Program-made: the position numbers and the translations under genes
The notes under the pieces: generated by a model
The model's database searches: none
The model's input: the letters and a program-made list of their open reading frames with translations, nothing else
Told to the model about the DNA's origin: nothing
Source: a virus
Virus record (IMG/VR): IMGVR_UViG_3300038528_000004
Coordinates: 1 to 37,475 of that record
Strand: one strand, 5' to 3'
DNA: 37,475 bases
Shown: positions 1,423-33,518 of the stretch, piece after piece
How positions within the stretch are numbered: position 1 is the stretch's first letter
Layout of the letters: every line of letters begins with the position of its first letter

Positions 1423-1678
1423 TTGCGGCCTCTACTGTATCAATAACGCGAACATCACAGTCAAGGGTGCGCCGCCGGTTATGATCACGTTGTTGTAGGT
1501 CTGTTGCTGGTTTGCCTGGCGCTTTCAACTCCACAAAAATTATGCAACCACCCGGTAATGTGACCAAACGATCAGGCACCGAGCGCCTGCCTGGTGATGT
1601 GAACTTTTCACACATTCCGCCCAATTCTTTCACGCGCTTGCATAGCGCTTTTTCTACGTTACGTTCCAACATGGCCAA
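1409..1678 (-). CDS. VRR-NUC domain nuclease
   Basis: An 89-residue stand-alone VRR-NUC domain, a minimal PD-(D/E)xK nuclease of the kind phages use as structure-specific or Holliday-junction nucleases. The signature is visible: PDR at residues 35-37 with D36, then PGG and FVELKAPG giving the E51-x-K53 catalytic pair, then a conserved LQQ near 61-63. The start overlaps the 3' end of the polymerase gene by 20 nt and the end overlaps the helicase start by 14 nt, so the three are tightly coupled. Length is normal for the free-standing phage form. Junction cleavage is inferred from the family. Confidence 0.85.
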   Translation of the reverse strand: MAMLERNVEKALCKRVKELGGMCEKFTSPGRRSVPDRLVTLPGGCIIFVELKAPGKPATDLQQRDHNRRRTLDCDVRVIDTVEAANAFT

Positions 1679-3440
1679 CTTCCTTTAATAGTGTTTTGGC
1701 CGCCTTTATATAATAGTCGCGGTCAATATCTGACAGGTCTGCTTCTGCGAGATCCATAACGGGGACACAGCCCGCCGACTTGGGGACGCGGTTGCCGTTG
1801 GTCGCGTAGGTTAGTCCGGCACCAAGAGCGAACGTTTTTGAGTGGTAAAACCTCACCGCCTTGCCAACAGCGACACCTTCATACATGGCACCGCCGCGCA
1901 CCTGCCGAACAGTTACGAACTCTCGCATTTCATTACACTGGTTTATAGTTTGCTCAATGTCGGCACCAGTAGCCAAAAAATCACACACAGCTTTTGAAAC
2001 GATGATGGCGTCTGGGTTTTTCTGCAAACTGGCAGGGGCAAAGATACCCTTTCCCTTTGTCTTCCCGTTCACCATCACAGCGCAATAATTATTCACATTG
2101 GCGCTTGAGATAGAACGGTAGTCTGTGCGCTCAAGTTCATAGGTTGTTTTCAGCATCCAATCAAACGCTATGGTTTCCATTTCGCGCTCTTTTGACTTGT
2201 TGCAGTGAATCACAATACCATCTGTGTTCGCGCTCTTTACGGATATGCCAGCAGCTTCCATTCTTTCGATCAACATCAAAAGAGCAAGCTGGCCTGTGAT
2301 TGTTGTTTGTATCAAAAGGTCTGGTGAGTACAGGACACTGTACTTGCTTCCGAGCTTCCCAAAGCTGCCGTTTATGGCAATCTTTAATGTTGCGTCGGCC
2401 ACCTTGTCGCCCTTTCTTTTAGCAGCAATTCGTCGGTTTACGATAGACTCATAAACTTTTAAGAATGGCTCGCCTAGAGATTTTGGGGCAAGTTTCTGCT
2501 GTAGTATGATATTCGGGTAAAATGCAGCAACATCCAACTCAAAAAGCAAATAGTCGTCATTTTTCTCAATATGCTGAAATTTCTCCACGCTGTGAAGGCC
2601 GCCAATGCCCATTTGATACCGTACCCCTGCCAACTCTATGCGTTCTGCTTTAAGCCATTCAGGCATTGCTACAGTGCCACTTGTGGCAAGTGTGTAATTC
2701 GTGTTTAAAATTCGTTCAAATACGCTGTTTAACTGGTGGCTTTTGAACATTACTATGCCGGGGTCTTGATACCGGAAGCTATAGCCCTTTTCTAGTTTTG
2801 GCGACCTGTATGTCTTGCCTGTCAAATTGTGAAGCTCGGAAGTGATTACAGTTTCTGCAATTTGTGCATCTGACTTGCTGCGAAGATCCATACCGTATTG
2901 GTCAGACATTGTTTTGCGAAGGTCTATCTGTTTTTCAAGCGCTTTGTAAAGCAATTCCGTTGTGTCTAGGTCATTAGCACAATACGTTCGGAGGGAATCA
3001 CGATCTGCTGGGGTTATCCGTTGGCTTGGCGCTATTGGCAAGTCTTGCATTTTTATTGCATGAAGCCGTCCGCCGTAAATCTTCAAGCCGCTTTGGCCTG
3101 GCGCTACCTGCATAATATCAATGTGATCCCAACTGGCTGGCGCGTGTAAATTAGCGTCCCTGATTATTCGCCATACTGGTTCACCGCTGGTAATGATTTT
3201 ATCTGAAAGAGCTTTTAGCTGCTCATTGTTATAGCCTTCTATAGCTGCAACAAGCATAGGCAAGTCATACCCGTTGCCGTTAAAACTTATCGTGGTGTAC
3301 TGGCCCATAAGGGCGCGTAGCTGTTTAGTGTTAAGGGGTTTGCCTTCATACAATTCGACATTGGCGACCTGGCGGGTTTTCATATTGCGGAATGATGCAA
3401 GAAAGTAATTGGGGAAACACTCCGTATCTACAATTAGCAT
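1659..3440 (-). CDS. family B DNA polymerase with 3'-5' exonuclease domain
   Basis: Replicative DNA polymerase, 593 aa. The exonuclease motifs are present: Exo I DTE at residues 5-7, Exo II NGNGYD at 54-59, Exo III YCAND at 153-157. The polymerase motifs are family B: motif A LDVAAFYPN at about 302-310, motif B beginning K353 with NGSFG at 357-361, and motif C ANTDG at 405-409. Motif C differs from the usual DTDS, with Asn for the first Asp and Gly for Ser; the key second Asp (D408) is kept. Only about 40 residues separate motifs A and B, so there is no room for the TPR2 insertion of protein-primed enzymes. That agrees with the primase encoded in the same window. An AAGGG Shine-Dalgarno precedes the ATG. 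It lies downstream of the HNH gene. Confidence 0.88.
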   Translation of the reverse strand: MLIVDTECFPNYFLASFRNMKTRQVANVELYEGKPLNTKQLRALMGQYTTISFNGNGYDLPMLVAAIEGYNNEQLKALSDKIITSGEPVWRIIRDANLHAPASWDHIDIMQVAPGQSGLKIYGGRLHAIKMQDLPIAPSQRITPADRDSLRTYCANDLDTTELLYKALEKQIDLRKTMSDQYGMDLRSKSDAQIAETVITSELHNLTGKTYRSPKLEKGYSFRYQDPGIVMFKSHQLNSVFERILNTNYTLATSGTVAMPEWLKAERIELAGVRYQMGIGGLHSVEKFQHIEKNDDYLLFELDVAAFYPNIILQQKLAPKSLGEPFLKVYESIVNRRIAAKRKGDKVADATLKIAINGSFGKLGSKYSVLYSPDLLIQTTITGQLALLMLIERMEAAGISVKSANTDGIVIHCNKSKEREMETIAFDWMLKTTYELERTDYRSISSANVNNYCAVMVNGKTKGKGIFAPASLQKNPDAIIVSKAVCDFLATGADIEQTINQCNEMREFVTVRQVRGGAMYEGVAVGKAVRFYHSKTFALGAGLTYATNGNRVPKSAGCVPVMDLAEADLSDIDRDYYIKAAKTLLKEVGHVGT

Positions 3441-6249: not shown

Positions 6250-6948
6250 ATGATTGAAAAACTTATACATCATTTTGGGGGCCACACTGGTTTGGCGATG
6301 TCCCTTGGAGTGAGTGTGGCTGCTGTTAGCCAGTGGGTCACTCACAAGAAAATACCTGCTGAAAGGGCGATAGAAATAGAAGCGATAACCGCTGGCAAAT
6401 TCAAAGCTCGCGAGCTGACAAGAAAAGGCAGGTTCCCAGATGAGCGAAAGCCCATAAAGATTATCGGCGACATTGCTGAAATAGATCTTGGAAGAGGGTA
6501 CACCGCCATAGTAGACGCCAGTGATGTTGAGCGTTTGGAAAAATATCAATGGCACGCCATGGCTAACAAGCACACCGTTTATGCGTTCAGAAACAAGCCC
6601 AAAAAAACCAAGGGGCTTTTCCACGGTTATATGCACCGTCTGATTATGGACGCTCCGGCAGGCATGGACGTAGACCACCGTGATGGAGATGGGCTGAACA
6701 ACAGGGCGGGTAATCTTCGCGTATACACCAGGTCTGTAAACATAAACAACAGGAGCGTCACAAACATACCGTACCGGAACAACACTACCGGGTATAAAGG
6801 TGTCAGGAAAAGCAGGACTGCCGGAAAGTGGATCGCTGTAACAACCATAGATGGGAAGTCCAAACACATTGGCACGTTCGATAACCCAGAAGACGCAAAC
6901 AGGGCGTATTGCGAAACGCTTGACATTGTGAAAGGGGCGGAAGAATGA
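6250..6948 (+). CDS. Cro-like repressor fused to HNH/AP2 homing endonuclease
   Basis: A 232-residue chimera. Residues 1 to about 60 form a complete small Cro/YdaS-type helix-turn-helix domain, with the LGVSVAAVSQW recognition segment and an IPAERAIEIE helix. Residues from about 70 match free-standing HNH_3 homing endonucleases. They begin KIIGDIAEIDLGRGYTAIVD, carry the HNH core at MHRLIM, VDHRDGDGLNN and NLR, and end in an AP2-like DNA-binding domain (GYKGVRKS to GTFDNPEDANRAY). The reading frame is open throughout. The stop overlaps the primase start as ATGA. A normal Cro is about 70 aa and would end where the endonuclease begins, so the endonuclease appears to have been added at the 3' end of cro. 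Whether the repressor half still functions is not shown. Confidence 0.85.
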   Translation: MIEKLIHHFGGHTGLAMSLGVSVAAVSQWVTHKKIPAERAIEIEAITAGKFKARELTRKGRFPDERKPIKIIGDIAEIDLGRGYTAIVDASDVERLEKYQWHAMANKHTVYAFRNKPKKTKGLFHGYMHRLIMDAPAGMDVDHRDGDGLNNRAGNLRVYTRSVNINNRSVTNIPYRNNTTGYKGVRKSRTAGKWIAVTTIDGKSKHIGTFDNPEDANRAYCETLDIVKGAEE

Positions 6949-9200
6949 CATTAACCATATTCCCTCTACGCTCTGACAAGTCACCAGCGGTAGGCAAGGG
7001 CGTAGACTGGAAAACATACAAAGGTGAAGCAAAGACCCCAATGGTCGGCATTGTGGTTCCCTCAGGGGCGTATGTGATAGACCTTGATCTGTATAAAGGT
7101 GTAACTCCTGCTGCTGTCGATAAGTTTCTCGGATGTTCAATTGCTTGGAAAGAAGCAGAAATACAAGAAACCAAGGGTGGAGGAAAACATTACGCCTTTA
7201 AAGTAGATCCCGAAAGCCGAATGAAGCAAGGCGCTGATCTTTTTGGGATTGTTGGTTTTGACACCAGGGCAGCCGGACGCGGTTATATTGCCACCGGGGA
7301 AGGCTACAAAGACGCAACGCTTTTCGGAATTGAAGAAACGCTTTCAGATGTTGAAGACTTGCCAGAGTTGCCCCTTGAGGCAGTCGCCATTTTACTAGAT
7401 GGTGCTGAAACGGGCGATAGTGATTTTGACGACCTTGCTCAAGCCGTTGCATCACAACCCGAAGGAATGACGCTTGTAGAAATAAAGGCGTATCTCGATC
7501 TGATACCAAGCGATGCTGCGGGATGCCCTGATCGTTGGTGGCGCATAGGCATGGGAATTTGCCACGAAACTCAAGGGTCTGAGGAAGGTTGGCAACTGTT
7601 TGATAATTTCAGCAAACGCGCCCCTGAAAAATACGACCAGCAAAAGAACCGCACAAGGTGGGATTCTTTCGGGAAAAGTTCACGTGAAAACCCAATAACA
7701 ATAGGGACAGTACGTGAGTTGGCTGGTGGGCAGGAAGCCCGCAAAACGGTGACTGGCGAAGTTGTAAAACAAGGTCTTGATGCTGCCGAAACACTTGATG
7801 ACATTAAGGTTGAACTTAAACGCTTGGCAAGCGTTCAGCTTGATGGGATGGCCCTTGACGTTGCGCTAAAGGCTGTACAAGCAAAGTATGGCGTTATAAC
7901 TGGCTCCAAACCGTCCCTAGTGTCAATTCAGAAAGAGATCCGCAAGATGCGCGGCAACGGTGAAGTTGGTACATACTTTGAGGGTTACGTGTTCTGTACG
8001 GCTAGTGCTGAGTACGTACACAGAGAAACAAAAGCAGTCATGGGGCCAAGGGCGTTTGACGTAAAGCACACACGGGACACGCCAAACGACGGTGAAGGTA
8101 ATCCGCAATCTGCGGGCATGTGGTCAAACGACAAAATAGAAGTTGTCGAAAACACAATGTATTTCCCCAAAGCAGGGGAGGTGTTCACGCACGATGAGCT
8201 TGATTATTTGAATAGCTATGTGCCCTCTAGGCTGCGGCGCATTCGAGAAGGAACTACAGATATTGTGGCTCGTATCAGGGGACACATAGCACATCTGTTG
8301 GTTAGCGAAGAAGAGCAAGATATTGTCATCAATTACCTAGCGCACAACGTCCAATACCCAGGAGAGAAAATAGCATGGTCGCCAGTGTTGCAGGGGGTAC
8401 AAGGTGACGGGAAATCCCTGCTGGCGGAAATGATGCAGCATGTTTTGGGTATCAGTAACGTGCGCATAATGAACGTGCAGACGCTTGAAAGCTCTTTTAC
8501 CGGATGGGCAACAGGGCAGTGTATGACGTTTATCGAAGAGCTAAAGCTGGACAACTTCCGAAAATATGAAGTGTTGAACAACCTAAAGCCTTATATTTCA
8601 AACCCAACCGTAGAAGAAACCAAGAAAGGAAAAGACCCGCGCACAGTTATCAACACTACCAACTATTTTGCGCTAACCAACTTTAAGGACGCCATACCGA
8701 TAGACTCCACAGATCGCAGGTATTGCATTATGTTCAGCCAGTGGCAATCAAAGGAAGCGTTGGAAGCGTTTATGGATGATCACCCTGGGTACTACCCCGA
8801 CCTGTATGACGCCATGAGAAATCATACTGGCGAGATCCTCGATTGGCTTTTAAATCTGCATATTCCAGAGGCGTTTTTCGGTACCACACGCGCACCACAT
8901 ACCGAAGCAAAAAGCCGGATGGAAGAGTTGAGCAAAAGCCCCGAAGCTCTCGCCCTGGAAGATGCGATTTCTATGTTTTCTGATCAGATAAAGGACGAAA
9001 CTGGACAAATAAACGTGACTATTTTACAGCAATTAGTGAGGGAACATGATGAAAATGACTTTGATGATTCTACTTTTGAAGACTTCCCGAGCACCCGGGC
9101 GCTGAAAAACGCCATGATGAGAATGGGGTATCAACCTGAAAAAAGAAGGAAAGCAGAATGTAACGGCACTTACAGAAACTGTACTTTTTATAGCAAATGA
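6945..9200 (+). CDS. bifunctional primase-helicase (prim-pol plus SF3-like helicase)
   Basis: A 751-residue replication protein. The N-terminal primase-polymerase domain shows D46-x-D48 in YVIDLDLYKG, GGGKHYAF with H82, and GFDTRAAGRGYI. Residues about 175-240 look like a PriCT-type primase C-terminal helical domain (IPSDAAGCPDRWWRIGMGI). The C-terminal helicase has Walker A GDGKSLL near 489-495, Walker B MTFIEEL near 526-532, a sensor segment NYFALTNFKDAIPID near 572-586 and an arginine-finger-like TDRR just after it. This is the phage primase/D5-like DUF5906 architecture. It starts by ATGA overlap with the Cro-HNH gene. The iteron-like block begins three bases after its stop, which suggests this protein acts at that site. 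Confidence 0.9.
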   Translation: MTLTIFPLRSDKSPAVGKGVDWKTYKGEAKTPMVGIVVPSGAYVIDLDLYKGVTPAAVDKFLGCSIAWKEAEIQETKGGGKHYAFKVDPESRMKQGADLFGIVGFDTRAAGRGYIATGEGYKDATLFGIEETLSDVEDLPELPLEAVAILLDGAETGDSDFDDLAQAVASQPEGMTLVEIKAYLDLIPSDAAGCPDRWWRIGMGICHETQGSEEGWQLFDNFSKRAPEKYDQQKNRTRWDSFGKSSRENPITIGTVRELAGGQEARKTVTGEVVKQGLDAAETLDDIKVELKRLASVQLDGMALDVALKAVQAKYGVITGSKPSLVSIQKEIRKMRGNGEVGTYFEGYVFCTASAEYVHRETKAVMGPRAFDVKHTRDTPNDGEGNPQSAGMWSNDKIEVVENTMYFPKAGEVFTHDELDYLNSYVPSRLRRIREGTTDIVARIRGHIAHLLVSEEEQDIVINYLAHNVQYPGEKIAWSPVLQGVQGDGKSLLAEMMQHVLGISNVRIMNVQTLESSFTGWATGQCMTFIEELKLDNFRKYEVLNNLKPYISNPTVEETKKGKDPRTVINTTNYFALTNFKDAIPIDSTDRRYCIMFSQWQSKEALEAFMDDHPGYYPDLYDAMRNHTGEILDWLLNLHIPEAFFGTTRAPHTEAKSRMEELSKSPEALALEDAISMFSDQIKDETGQINVTILQQLVREHDENDFDDSTFEDFPSTRALKNAMMRMGYQPEKRRKAECNGTYRNCTFYSK

Positions 9201-9202
9201 CC

Positions 9203-9514
9203 AAAAGGCCACAATGAACGCCCGAAAGGCCACAATAAACCCATAGTTAAAAACATTGTGGCCTTTTGTAAGTTACTGATATTGCTATTAAATACTACTA
9301 AAAGGCCATAATACCCATAATAAAATAGAAATAGGTATGTAGAGATTCATTTTATAGTTTTACGTGTTCTCTTTTTACGCACACACACTGTAATGGTTTT
9401 CGTTTTATTGTGGGTATTCTGGCCTTTTTCCTCTCAAACCGTTGGGAGAGTAAGCGGGAAGCGCAGGCCACAATGTTTTTAACTATGGGTTTATTCCGGC
9501 CCATTGTGGACTTT
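9203..9514. repeat. iteron-like array with nested inverted repeats; candidate replication origin
   Basis: The 395-bp gap between 9200 and 9596 has no plausible gene. It holds seven copies of a 12-mer, consensus AAAGGCCACAAT. Direct copies are at 9204, 9225 (21 bp apart, two helical turns), 9301 (one mismatch) and 9465 (two mismatches); inverted copies are at 9255-9266, 9416-9427 and 9503-9514. Two long inverted repeats embed them. The outer arms, 9234-9264 and 9465-9495, are a perfect 31-bp match. The inner arms, 9300-9325 and 9403-9428, match at 24 of 26. The centre is A/T-rich. Position directly after the primase-helicase gene fits an iteron origin. A MITE-like insertion is the alternative. 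Confidence 0.6.
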
Positions 9515-9527
9515 ACCCCTTCTGGGC

Positions 9528-9555
9528 TTGCACCCTCCCAAATCTGTGTTATTGT
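9528..9555 (+). promoter_or_regulatory. sigma70-like promoter
   Basis: -35 TTGCAC (9528-9533), a 16-nt spacer and -10 TATTGT (9550-9555), in the context GTGTTATTGTTAACTCAT. The same architecture and downstream context occur at 20333-20360. It drives the small accessory genes at 9596 and 9813. Confidence 0.6.
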
Positions 9556-9595
9556 TAACTCATCGAAGCAACCAAACCACAAAAAGGAAATCACC

Positions 9596-9787
9596 ATGTA
9601 CGCGCCAAGGCAAGAGAAAGTCAAAGCGTCCTGCCCAGCCTGCCAGGCCACCGTTACAAGCTGGCACGAAGAGGAGTTTATCGGGTGGATGGGTCATTGC
9701 GCAGATTGTGAGGTGCAGGCAGTGCAGGACACCACACAGGCCACGAACACCGATTACCCTTGGCAACCCCACACACAAAACCAATAG
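9596..9787 (+). CDS. small zinc-ribbon protein
   Basis: A 63-residue protein with two CxxC pairs (C13/C16 and C35/C38) spaced as in a zinc ribbon, and a tail rich in Thr, Gln and Pro. The frame is open further upstream, but the start at 9596 is preferred because AAAAGGAAA precedes it at good spacing and the promoter at 9528-9555 lies just before. It is the first gene of a two-gene unit with the 157-aa gene at 9813. Function is unknown; a small DNA- or protein-binding role is typical of such ribbons. Confidence 0.6.
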   Translation: MYAPRQEKVKASCPACQATVTSWHEEEFIGWMGHCADCEVQAVQDTTQATNTDYPWQPHTQNQ

Positions 9788-20332: not shown

Positions 20333-20360
20333 TTGCAATGCTGCGGTAGTGTGTTATTGT
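20333..20360 (+). promoter_or_regulatory. promoter of small-gene cassette
   Basis: -35 TTGCAA (20333-20338), a 16-nt spacer, -10 TATTGT (20355-20360). The context GTGTTATTGTTGAGTCAT is nearly the same as at the 9528-9555 promoter. Confidence 0.6.
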
Positions 20361-20402
20361 TGAGTCATAGAGAGACACCAACCACACGAAAGGAATACAA
20401 AC

Positions 20403-31314: not shown

Positions 31315-33021
31315 ATGGCTATACCAGCAAAACCAACGCTAACAACGCCACCGACTGCTCCGGTTCGGGGTGAGGATCGGGCAACGTTTGCTACCAAGGC
31401 GAACGCCTATGTAGTTTTTATCGGCACCAACGTAACCGATTTGACGGCGGCTATTGACTGGCAGAATACGGTTTTTACTGCTACAGAAACGGAAGCCACA
31501 AGCGCGGCAACCTCGGCATCTACTGCAACCACAAAATCTGACATAGCAGTAGCCGCAGCGGCAGCCGCAGTTGCAACTGCTAACGCGGCAGCTTGGGTGT
31601 CCGGCGCTTCTTATGACATAAACGACAACGCAATTTCCCAGATTAATTTTAAAACTTACAGAGCGAAGTCTACTTTTACTGGCCAGACGACCGACCCAAG
31701 CGCAGACGAAACGCGATGGGCCGACTTAGCGCCTGATCCTGATGCAATCTTAACGCCGGTAAACGTTTCGCCGGCAGACAATGCCACAGATGTAGGCGGC
31801 GGGCCTCTACTGACCGGCTCGCCCTTCTACAGCTTGTACGGCTTGCCTATGGTTGCTGGCCAATGGCAAGTGTCTACAGATGAAACCTTTGCTACCACGG
31901 TTATTGATACGGGTGACGTTGCTGGTTCGTCTATTAGCTTTACAGCGACTGGGCTTCTGGTATCAACGACTTACTATTGGCGGCTGCGCTACAAAGACAA
32001 CGCAGGAAACTACTCCCTATATTCCCCATCCATCGAGTTTGCAACGTCGAGTTCGTTTTTTCCGGAAAACGAGGTAGCTAAGCTGATGGCGTCGGATGCG
32101 GTGGATGGTGACAACTTCGGTTGGTCAGTGGCGGTGTCCGGCGATACGGCGGTGATCGGCGCCCGATATGAGGACACCGGAGGATCGTACGCCGGCGCAG
32201 CGTACGTCTTTACCCGCTCCGGTGGAGCATGGGTGGAGCAGGCTAAGCTGATGGCGTCGGATGCGCAGTCGAGTGACTACTTCGGTGGTTCAGTGGCGGT
32301 GTCCGGCGATACGGCGGTGATCGGCGCCCGCCTCGAGGATACCGGTGGCAGTGGCGCCGGTGCCGCGTACGTCTTTACCCGCACCGGGGGGTCCTGGACG
32401 CAGCAGGCTAAGCTGATGGCGTCGGATGCGCAGTCGAGTGACTACTTCGGTGGTTCAGTGGCGGTGTCCGGCGATACGGCGGTGATAGGCGCCTACGCCG
32501 AGGCCACCGGAGGATCGACCGCTGGCGCAGTGTACGTCTTTACCCGCACCGGGGGGTCCTGGACGCAGCAGGCTAAGCTGATGGCGTCGGATGCGCAGGC
32601 GTATGACAACTTCGGTGGTTCAGTGGCGGTGTCCGGCGATACGGCGGTGATAGGCGCCTACGCCGAGGCCACCGGAGGATCGACCGCTGGCGCAGTGTAC
32701 GTCTTTACCCGCTCCGGCGGAGCATGGACACAGCAGGCTAAGCTGCTGGCGTCGGATGCGCAGGCGAATGACTACTTCGGTTACTCAGTGGCGGTGTCCG
32801 GCGATACGGCGGTGATAGGCGCCTACCGGGAGGACACCGGAGGATCGAACGCTGGCGCAGTGTACGTCTTTACCCGCTCCGGTGGAGCATGGGTGGAGCA
32901 GGCTAAGCTGATGGCGTCGGATGCGCAGACTAATGACTACTTCGGTTACTCAGTGGCGGTGTCCGGCGATACGGCGGTGATAGGCGCCTTAAACGCTGAC
33001 GCCGCGTACATCTTTGAATAA
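31315..33021 (+). CDS. tail fibre with FG-GAP-like tandem repeats
   Basis: A 568-residue fibre or receptor-binding protein. Residues 1-100 form a fibre N-terminus with an Ala/Thr-rich helical stretch. About 145-245 is a fibronectin-III-like domain (NVSPADNATDV, QWQVSTDETF, STTYYWRLRYKDNAGNYS). From about 255 to the end there are five full 55-residue repeats and a partial sixth, each with KLMASDAQ, FGGSVAVSGDTAVIGA, TGGS-AGAVYVFTR and GAWTQQA, matching FG-GAP_2 beta-propeller blades. The DNA repeat is exactly 165 bp. Being last in the tail module and before the lysis genes fits a host-range protein. Confidence 0.8.
   Translation: MAIPAKPTLTTPPTAPVRGEDRATFATKANAYVVFIGTNVTDLTAAIDWQNTVFTATETEATSAATSASTATTKSDIAVAAAAAAVATANAAAWVSGASYDINDNAISQINFKTYRAKSTFTGQTTDPSADETRWADLAPDPDAILTPVNVSPADNATDVGGGPLLTGSPFYSLYGLPMVAGQWQVSTDETFATTVIDTGDVAGSSISFTATGLLVSTTYYWRLRYKDNAGNYSLYSPSIEFATSSSFFPENEVAKLMASDAVDGDNFGWSVAVSGDTAVIGARYEDTGGSYAGAAYVFTRSGGAWVEQAKLMASDAQSSDYFGGSVAVSGDTAVIGARLEDTGGSGAGAAYVFTRTGGSWTQQAKLMASDAQSSDYFGGSVAVSGDTAVIGAYAEATGGSTAGAVYVFTRTGGSWTQQAKLMASDAQAYDNFGGSVAVSGDTAVIGAYAEATGGSTAGAVYVFTRSGGAWTQQAKLLASDAQANDYFGYSVAVSGDTAVIGAYREDTGGSNAGAVYVFTRSGGAWVEQAKLMASDAQTNDYFGYSVAVSGDTAVIGALNADAAYIFE
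32077..33018 (+). repeat. 165-bp tandem repeats inside the tail fibre gene
   Basis: Repeat units begin at 32077, 32242, 32407, 32572, 32737 and 32902, each exactly 165 bp except the last (117 bp). Much of each unit is identical even at synonymous sites, including GTGGCGGTGTCCGGCGATAC, so the copies are recent or kept alike by recombination. Confidence 0.9.
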
Positions 33022-33032
33022 GGAGAGAGATC

Positions 33033-33518
33033 ATGAAATGCTTAGTTGAAAATGGCGAAGTGACGCAGTGGCCGCTTAATGAAACGCACATCAGAAACCG
33101 GGGGCTTAGGCCGCCGCAGGTGCGCGAGATAACGCCTACGCAAAAACCTGCTATAAACGCATTGCTTCAGGCTGTCTATGAGCGCAAGCCGCTCATGCAG
33201 GACGGCGATCCGGTACAGGTGTGGGAGGTTGTGGACTTCACAGAAGCGGAGCTAGCCGTAAAGCTAGAAGCTAGACGCGCCCTAATGGTCGTCACAATGC
33301 GCCAAGCCCGGCTGGCATTGCTGCAGCAAGGGCTGTTGGCCAGCATACAGCCCGCAATTGACGCACTGGATGAACCGCACAGGTCAGGGGCTAACATCGA
33401 GTGGGAGTACTCTCAAGAAGTTGAGCGCAACCGGTCATTTGTTGAGCTGCTTTCTCAGGCGCTGGGGTTGACCGATGACGACCTTGACGCGCTATTTGAA
33501 TTGGCCGCAACGCTATGA
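33033..33518 (+). CDS. tail fibre-associated protein/possible assembly chaperone
   Basis: A 161-residue protein with AAGGAGAG before its ATG. The N-terminal third is a short beta region (MKCLVENGEVTQWPLN, VWEVVDFTEAELA) and the rest is long charged helices (LEARRALMVVTMRQARLALLQQGLLASIQPAID). This composition and the position right after the fibre gene are typical of phage fibre assembly or tail-accessory proteins. The stop overlaps the following ATG. Confidence 0.65.
   Translation: MKCLVENGEVTQWPLNETHIRNRGLRPPQVREITPTQKPAINALLQAVYERKPLMQDGDPVQVWEVVDFTEAELAVKLEARRALMVVTMRQARLALLQQGLLASIQPAIDALDEPHRSGANIEWEYSQEVERNRSFVELLSQALGLTDDDLDALFELAATL

Follow-up and report, generated by a model that had tools for sequence, protein, structure and literature searches.

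Does the block of short repeats that directly follows the primase-helicase gene of the viral record IMGVR_UViG_3300038528_000004 mark the place where the phage starts to replicate its DNA, and which protein would recognize it? The record is a single viral contig of 37,475 bases, and "the window" is used below for this whole stretch. An original prediction, made from the letters of the window, had read the block as an iteron origin, with a mobile repeat as the alternative. From the comparison of sequences, the block is very probably the phage DNA replication origin, because related phages keep the same mirror layout at the same place with different repeat sequences.

Repeat Anatomy of the Gap After the Primase Gene

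The block lies in a non-coding gap and begins 3 bp past the primase stop codon, as it likewise does in most relatives (Table 1). Open reading frames that overlap the gap look spurious, because relatives carry indels there. Iterons were called at no more than 2 mismatches to the 12-mer AAAGGCCACAAT, and the original prediction had counted seven copies, four direct and three inverted, together with a perfect 31-bp outer inverted repeat, a second inverted repeat pairing at 24 of 26 positions and a 21-bp distance between the first two direct copies. All of these coordinates were confirmed, with the small correction that the pattern is one of eight sites. Once the degenerate copy is counted, the iteron order (++-+ followed by -+--) is fully mirror-symmetric about a centre near position 9364, with four iterons in each half flanking an AT-rich centre.

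Table 1. Positions of the repeat block, its parts and the candidate iteron-binding genes in the window.
Feature	Position	Strand	Remarks
Non-coding gap holding the proposed origin block	9201–9596		396 bp, between the primase stop (9200) and the next likely start codon (9597)
Iteron 1	9204–9215	+	AAAGGCCACAAT
Iteron 2	9225–9236	+	AAAGGCCACAAT; 21 bp after iteron 1
Iteron 3	9255–9266	-	exact; inverted relative to iteron 2
Iteron 4	9301–9312	+	1 mismatch; inner left
Iteron 5	9416–9427	-	1 mismatch; inner right
Iteron 6	9463–9474	+	2 mismatches; core AGGCCACAAT exact
Iteron 7	9493–9504	-	degenerate, 8/12, reads ATGGGCCGGAAT; mirror partner of iteron 2
Iteron 8	9503–9514	-	1 mismatch; mirror partner of iteron 1
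Outer inverted-repeat arms	9228–9264 / 9465–9501	+ / -	37 nt, 95%; perfect over 31 bp (9234–9264, exact reverse complement of 9465–9495)
Inner inverted-repeat arms	9300–9325 / 9403–9428	+ / -	24/26 paired
AT-rich centre, proposed melting region	9313–9415		69% AT, against 50% for the record
IHF consensus WATCARNNNNTTR, here TATCAGTAACTTA	9269–9281	-	centre lies about 90 bp to the right; the record has 3 exact matches
Primase-polymerase/SF3 helicase, proposed initiator	6945–9200	+	751 aa; AEP-type motifs
Cro/YdaS-like HTH gene, rival iteron binder	6250–6948	+	fused to HNH-AP2 extension

Repeat statistics set the block apart from the rest of the record. Its 9-mers form 39 inverted and 11 direct pairs, compared with shuffle means of 0.6 and 0.5, and none of 500 shuffles matched these counts. 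When inverted 9-mer pairs were counted per 400-bp interval, the block topped the whole record, the next-best interval having 6. The core AGGCCACAAT, at no more than 1 mismatch, is found seven times in the block and once elsewhere in the record. Cumulative GC skew, a check named in the original prediction, has its minimum near 6.2 kb and not at 9.36 kb; this minimum coincides with a switch in gene direction and therefore does not discriminate between the readings.

Two other repeats were seen in the record. Positions 9545–9589 and 20350–20395 are 81% similar, each just ahead of a different small gene (leader and ribosome-binding region), and possibly represent a duplicated expression signal. 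Very dense direct repeats at 32251–33050 lie inside an open reading frame at 31315–33021 (568 aa; 58–63% GC), whose product is probably a repetitive tail or fibre protein.

Conservation in Near Relatives

Three near-relative IMG/VR contigs, with primases 93–97% identical to that of the window, keep the block at the same place and at 98–99% identity; it is thus neither absent nor replaced in close relatives. All ten variable columns among them fall outside the iterons and arms (0 of 157 columns inside, 10 of 158 elsewhere; Fisher p = 0.0017), which identifies iterons and arms as the constrained parts.

These searches also bear on the mobile repeat. Nested terminal-type inverted repeats would fit a MITE-like or other inserted element, and such elements are expected in multiple copies at unrelated sites. 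In IMG/VR, however, the arm was found only at this locus in the three near relatives; it was in no GTDB species genome, which answers the search of unrelated chromosomal sites that the original prediction had called for, and the block was in no plasmid. Other phages, moreover, carry unrelated sequences in the same layout at the same place. The insertion reading was rejected as extremely improbable.

The gene content right after the block (past 9597 in the window) differs among the near relatives L005, L006 and L007, and this point is a possible insertion hotspot.

Iteron Blocks in Distant Relatives

About 20 loci whose primases are 30–73% identical, from two Vibrio phages, Casjensviridae and IMG/VR contigs, have an iteron block in the gap after the primase, usually with another iteron. 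The Vibrio phages LP.1 and 1.017.O (41% primase identity) have the gene order of the window and share its replication module, which comprises an SNF2 helicase, VRR-NUC, polymerase, SSB and DUF2800 nuclease, then a divergent HTH or small gene, and the primase. In both, the primase is followed by a non-coding gap of about 500 bp with different iterons in both orientations, and the gap of LP.1 is the top inverted-repeat interval genome-wide. An alignment-based scan gave 53 IMG/VR loci, 18 of them with full-length primase similarity (30–73% identical). The highest repeat density lay directly past the primase stop in 12 of these 18, and 4 further loci had their densest block close to the stop, a second peak, or the top inverted interval. 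The Casjensviridae JS26, AH2, BcepNazgul, phiAxp-2 and a Klebsiella phage likewise carry a repeat block after the primase, with three CCTACGCAAT copies opposite three inverted copies in JS26 and 14 copies of AGGTCCGAAT in AH2.

The iterons themselves turn over. Among other loci, the window has AGGCCACAAT, L047 TGTGCAGGTA, L068 CCAACTAAAT, L055 TGATCCAAAT, 1.017.O GTATCCGAAC and L060 GGTGCGCAAT. AH2 and BcepNazgul share one iteron at 53% primase identity (positions 1–600), whereas the window and L047 differ at 73%, and over all pairs iteron similarity correlated neither with primase identity nor with identity of the primase C-terminus. Direct DNA similarity to the block was not found in the phage collection, because iterons diverge. 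No bacterial genome contigs encoding the primase were found, and simple k-mer counts in L026 were not above shuffles. The same inverted pair in L009, an unrelated phage contig without the primase, was discarded as a chance match.

The arrangement is not universal among the relatives: in some of them no block was found, and in others the richest block lies elsewhere. In the Curvibacter phage PCA1 and in two Aeromonas phages, the rich repeat blocks occupy other sites near the primase (L038 7201–7600; L043 1901–2300; L040 1–400). In the more distant prim-pol relatives L071–L091, dense mixed-orientation repeats lie about 0.3–1 kb upstream of the gene, not downstream (e.g., L087 4301–4700; L085 3301–3700), a possible sign that the origin moved together with the module. 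The AH2 block (L033 4792–5322; L046 189–206) runs across the ends of the linear record, where the cos site lies; a putative origin and cos are therefore adjacent in AH2.

Conserved Geometry and the IHF Consensus

Blocks of 13 loci were superposed on their own symmetry points, with site calls from a loose profile and with some loci interrelated (e.g., L061/L064). Relative to the centre, one strand carries sites at -46 to -62 and, farther out, at -122 to -170; between these two groups, at -104 to -122, the sites are on the other strand. The right half mirrors this order. The inner iteron and the inverted one are spaced by about 57 bp in several phages; in others the distance is 46–49 bp, shorter by roughly one helical turn. 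The best site overlap, summed over all pairs of the 13 loci, reached 280; the null was 232.6 (sd 4.9), the highest of 200 null values being 247. The block of L047, at 73% primase identity, has other iteron letters in the same position, strand order and spacing: all 7 sites of the window superpose on those of L047 within 2 bp and on the same strands, which none of 500 randomisations reached. Taken one by one, the signal is weaker; the mirror test was significant only for L047, L060 and JS26, and the overlap of the window with several single loci was not significant individually.

IHF sites were sought with the E. coli consensus, which may not be that of the host. Of 23 blocks, 11 contain the motif WATCARNNNNTTR (null mean 1.4, maximum 5), and where a centre could be assigned it lies 88–114 bp away, on the minus strand if left of the centre and on the plus strand if right. 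In the window, IHF would bind at the corresponding match (Table 1).

A further reading is a structured RNA, or a transcription terminator of the primase operon with the long inverted repeats as stems, and the block strand does fold much more stably than its shuffled versions (z -11.3). This excess follows from the inverted iterons, however, and what the relatives keep is the strand and spacing of short repeats and not a shared stem; direct copies are numerous in LP.1 and AH2. An Rfam search of the block gave no family above threshold. The promoter and terminator scan found nothing in the block, including any intrinsic-terminator-like site, in agreement with the earlier statement that this is not an ordinary terminator. 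We consider an RNA function very improbable.

Candidate Iteron-Binding Proteins

Two genes upstream of the block encode plausible binders. The primase-helicase has a PriCT_2 domain (residues 180–260) and a DUF5906/SF3 domain (482–592) with the Walker A motif GVQGDGKS. Directly 5' of it, in most relatives examined, lies the gene of the Cro/YdaS-like HTH protein, and the iterons could be operators or partition sites of this protein, the block then serving transcription or segregation; repressors and ParB-like proteins can indeed use repeated sites. On the other hand, the HTH gene and its divergent promoter are without iterons in 14 of 15 loci, the fifteenth having one 1-mismatch match. The HTH allele is also swapped among near relatives: between the window and L005–L007 the protein is roughly half identical, as judged by eye, while primases are 93–97% identical and the iterons unchanged. 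An IHF site and an AT-rich centre, furthermore, suit an origin better than an HTH operator. A role as HTH sites is accordingly judged quite improbable, and the difference in HTH allele without iteron change, together with the lack of iterons at the HTH promoter, favours the primase-helicase as the putative iteron-binding protein.

The HTH gene with the HNH-AP2 extension (232 aa) is present in the window and in L008 (4348–5004), and L005–L007 (4816–5004) have another allele, a short version of 62 aa. This locus has undergone either a recent replacement or the insertion of a homing-endonuclease-like domain.

The C-terminal domain of the primase is among its least conserved parts (28–47% identity vs. 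42–60% in the SF3 part), with a conserved pattern across 16 relatives. Its AlphaFold2 model (pLDDT 81) has the helix-helix-strand-strand order typical of a winged helix. Foldseek gave no significant PDB match for this model, and a profile search of PDB and Pfam with the domain returned nothing. The structure model of the full-length primase was poor (pLDDT 49) and was left out.

Comparison With Known Replication Origins

The block most resembles the origins of PICI and SaPI islands. Fillol-Salom et al. placed PICI origins 3' of rep and described an AT-rich region with an iteron set on either side; in 2018 they claimed that no other known bacterial replicon had this organisation (PMC6092414). 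Two helicases, SaPI Rep and Cch2, bind iterons that directly follow their own genes, and do so through a C-terminal domain (PMC7581432). In the parts of these two reports drawn on here, the origins of EcCICFT073, SaPIbov1 and SaPI5 are, like the block, directly 3' of a helicase gene, often that of a primase-helicase, and as in the phage blocks two sets of element-specific iterons flank an AT-rich region (PMC6092414; PMC7581432). In the islands, a helicase that loads itself serves as initiator, whether or not a primase is fused to it; PriCT_2, DUF5906/SF3 and AEP motifs are present here, and self-loading is putative. Fixed spacing within a mirror layout and an IHF consensus that recurs are features of the phage blocks, and are not noted for the islands in the same parts of those reports (PMC6092414; PMC7581432). 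PICI and SaPI are satellite islands; the window, by contrast, belongs to a tailed phage and encodes a DNA polymerase, a terminase and a portal protein of its own. For this reason we say that the block appears to work like a PICI/SaPI origin and is not a member of that class. The putative SCCmec Cch2 origin is similar in having iterons just downstream of a helicase gene, bound by the Cch2 C-terminal domain (PMC7581432), and differs in having only three AAGTG direct-repeat iterons and another protein set.

Satellite phage P4 offers a different reading. Its ori and crr also have short iterons in both orientations and a primase-helicase initiator. The region immediately 3' of the alpha gene, which encodes the primase-helicase, is crr with its type I iterons, and ori lies past the opposite end of alpha at a distance of more than 2 kb. 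The block could by analogy have an accessory role, needed in cis and bound by the primase-helicase, with replication starting at a second site. However, P4 needs two separate clusters in cis that share their iterons, while the window, in a record that may be incomplete, has one cluster and a single stray 1-mismatch match; the LP.1 cluster is also single, with two such stray matches. The P4 crr consists of two direct repeats of 120 bp, unlike the mirror-inverted block with its AT-rich centre, and no IHF consensus was found in P4 ori or crr. We regard an accessory role as unlikely and the origin reading as preferable.

By sequence, the closest solved relative of the initiator is the NrS-1 primase-polymerase (6k9c/6k9e, residues 406–597, E ~4e-10), which has the same prim-pol, helix-bundle and SF3 domains. 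The NrS-1 enzyme primes at GTGG or GTG, with GTGG favoured (PMC8718748), and the window iteron reads ATTGTGGCC on the other strand, containing GTGG. As a general rule this priming motif was rejected; it is not conserved in the iterons of other relatives. NrS-1 has two recognition sites mid-genome (PMC7102993) and, unlike the window, is without an iteron array.

Iteron plasmids and lambda-type origins likewise have repeated initiator sites by an AT-rich region, often with IHF; in the phage block the iterons are mirrored, not only direct, and lie outside the initiator gene. The DnaA box TTWTNCACA, expected in RepA/pi-type iteron plasmid origins, was absent from 15 blocks. A search of the open-access literature found no paper naming this origin in Casjensviridae or in these phages, although an earlier description may be missed.

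Proposed Model and Implications

Considering the results above, we have proposed a plausible model for replication initiation in this phage, in which replication would start at the block. The original prediction of an origin is strongly supported by the constant place after the same gene, the geometry kept despite iteron turnover, the fixed location of the IHF consensus and the AT-rich centre. The block would form two platforms of four iterons each, ++-+ and its mirror image, with the AT-rich segment between them. The prim-pol/SF3 helicase encoded upstream would bind the iterons, most likely through its winged-helix-like C-terminal domain, and one helicase hexamer would assemble per side, with IHF bending the DNA between outer and inner iterons. 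The paired helicases could then melt the AT-rich centre and load in opposite directions, giving presumably bidirectional replication, and the phage DNA polymerase (gene at 1659–3440) may extend primers that the AEP domain makes at both forks.

On a wider scale, the evidence is about evenly balanced as to whether these blocks represent a widespread and apparently unannotated class of tailed-phage origins, Casjensviridae included, with two mirrored platforms at fixed helical spacing, bent by IHF and coupled to a prim-pol/SF3 helicase, in which iterons turn over fast and geometry stays. For many phages, the comparison provides a precise map of iteron letters, site positions, centre and IHF site. 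Two questions thereby become open to testing: how the DNA specificity of an initiator shifts within a constant geometry of the complex, and whether iteron specificity mediates competition between satellites and phages.

Mirror-image origin design has until now been described mainly for satellites that parasitise phages. A PICI-like organisation is now seen in ordinary tailed phages of several lineages, including the well-known BcepNazgul and AH2, which suggests that satellites and phages share an origin design. If the blocks do form a widespread class with fast iteron turnover, the PICI origin would lose its claimed uniqueness, and many mutually exclusive replication specificities would exist among phages and satellites.
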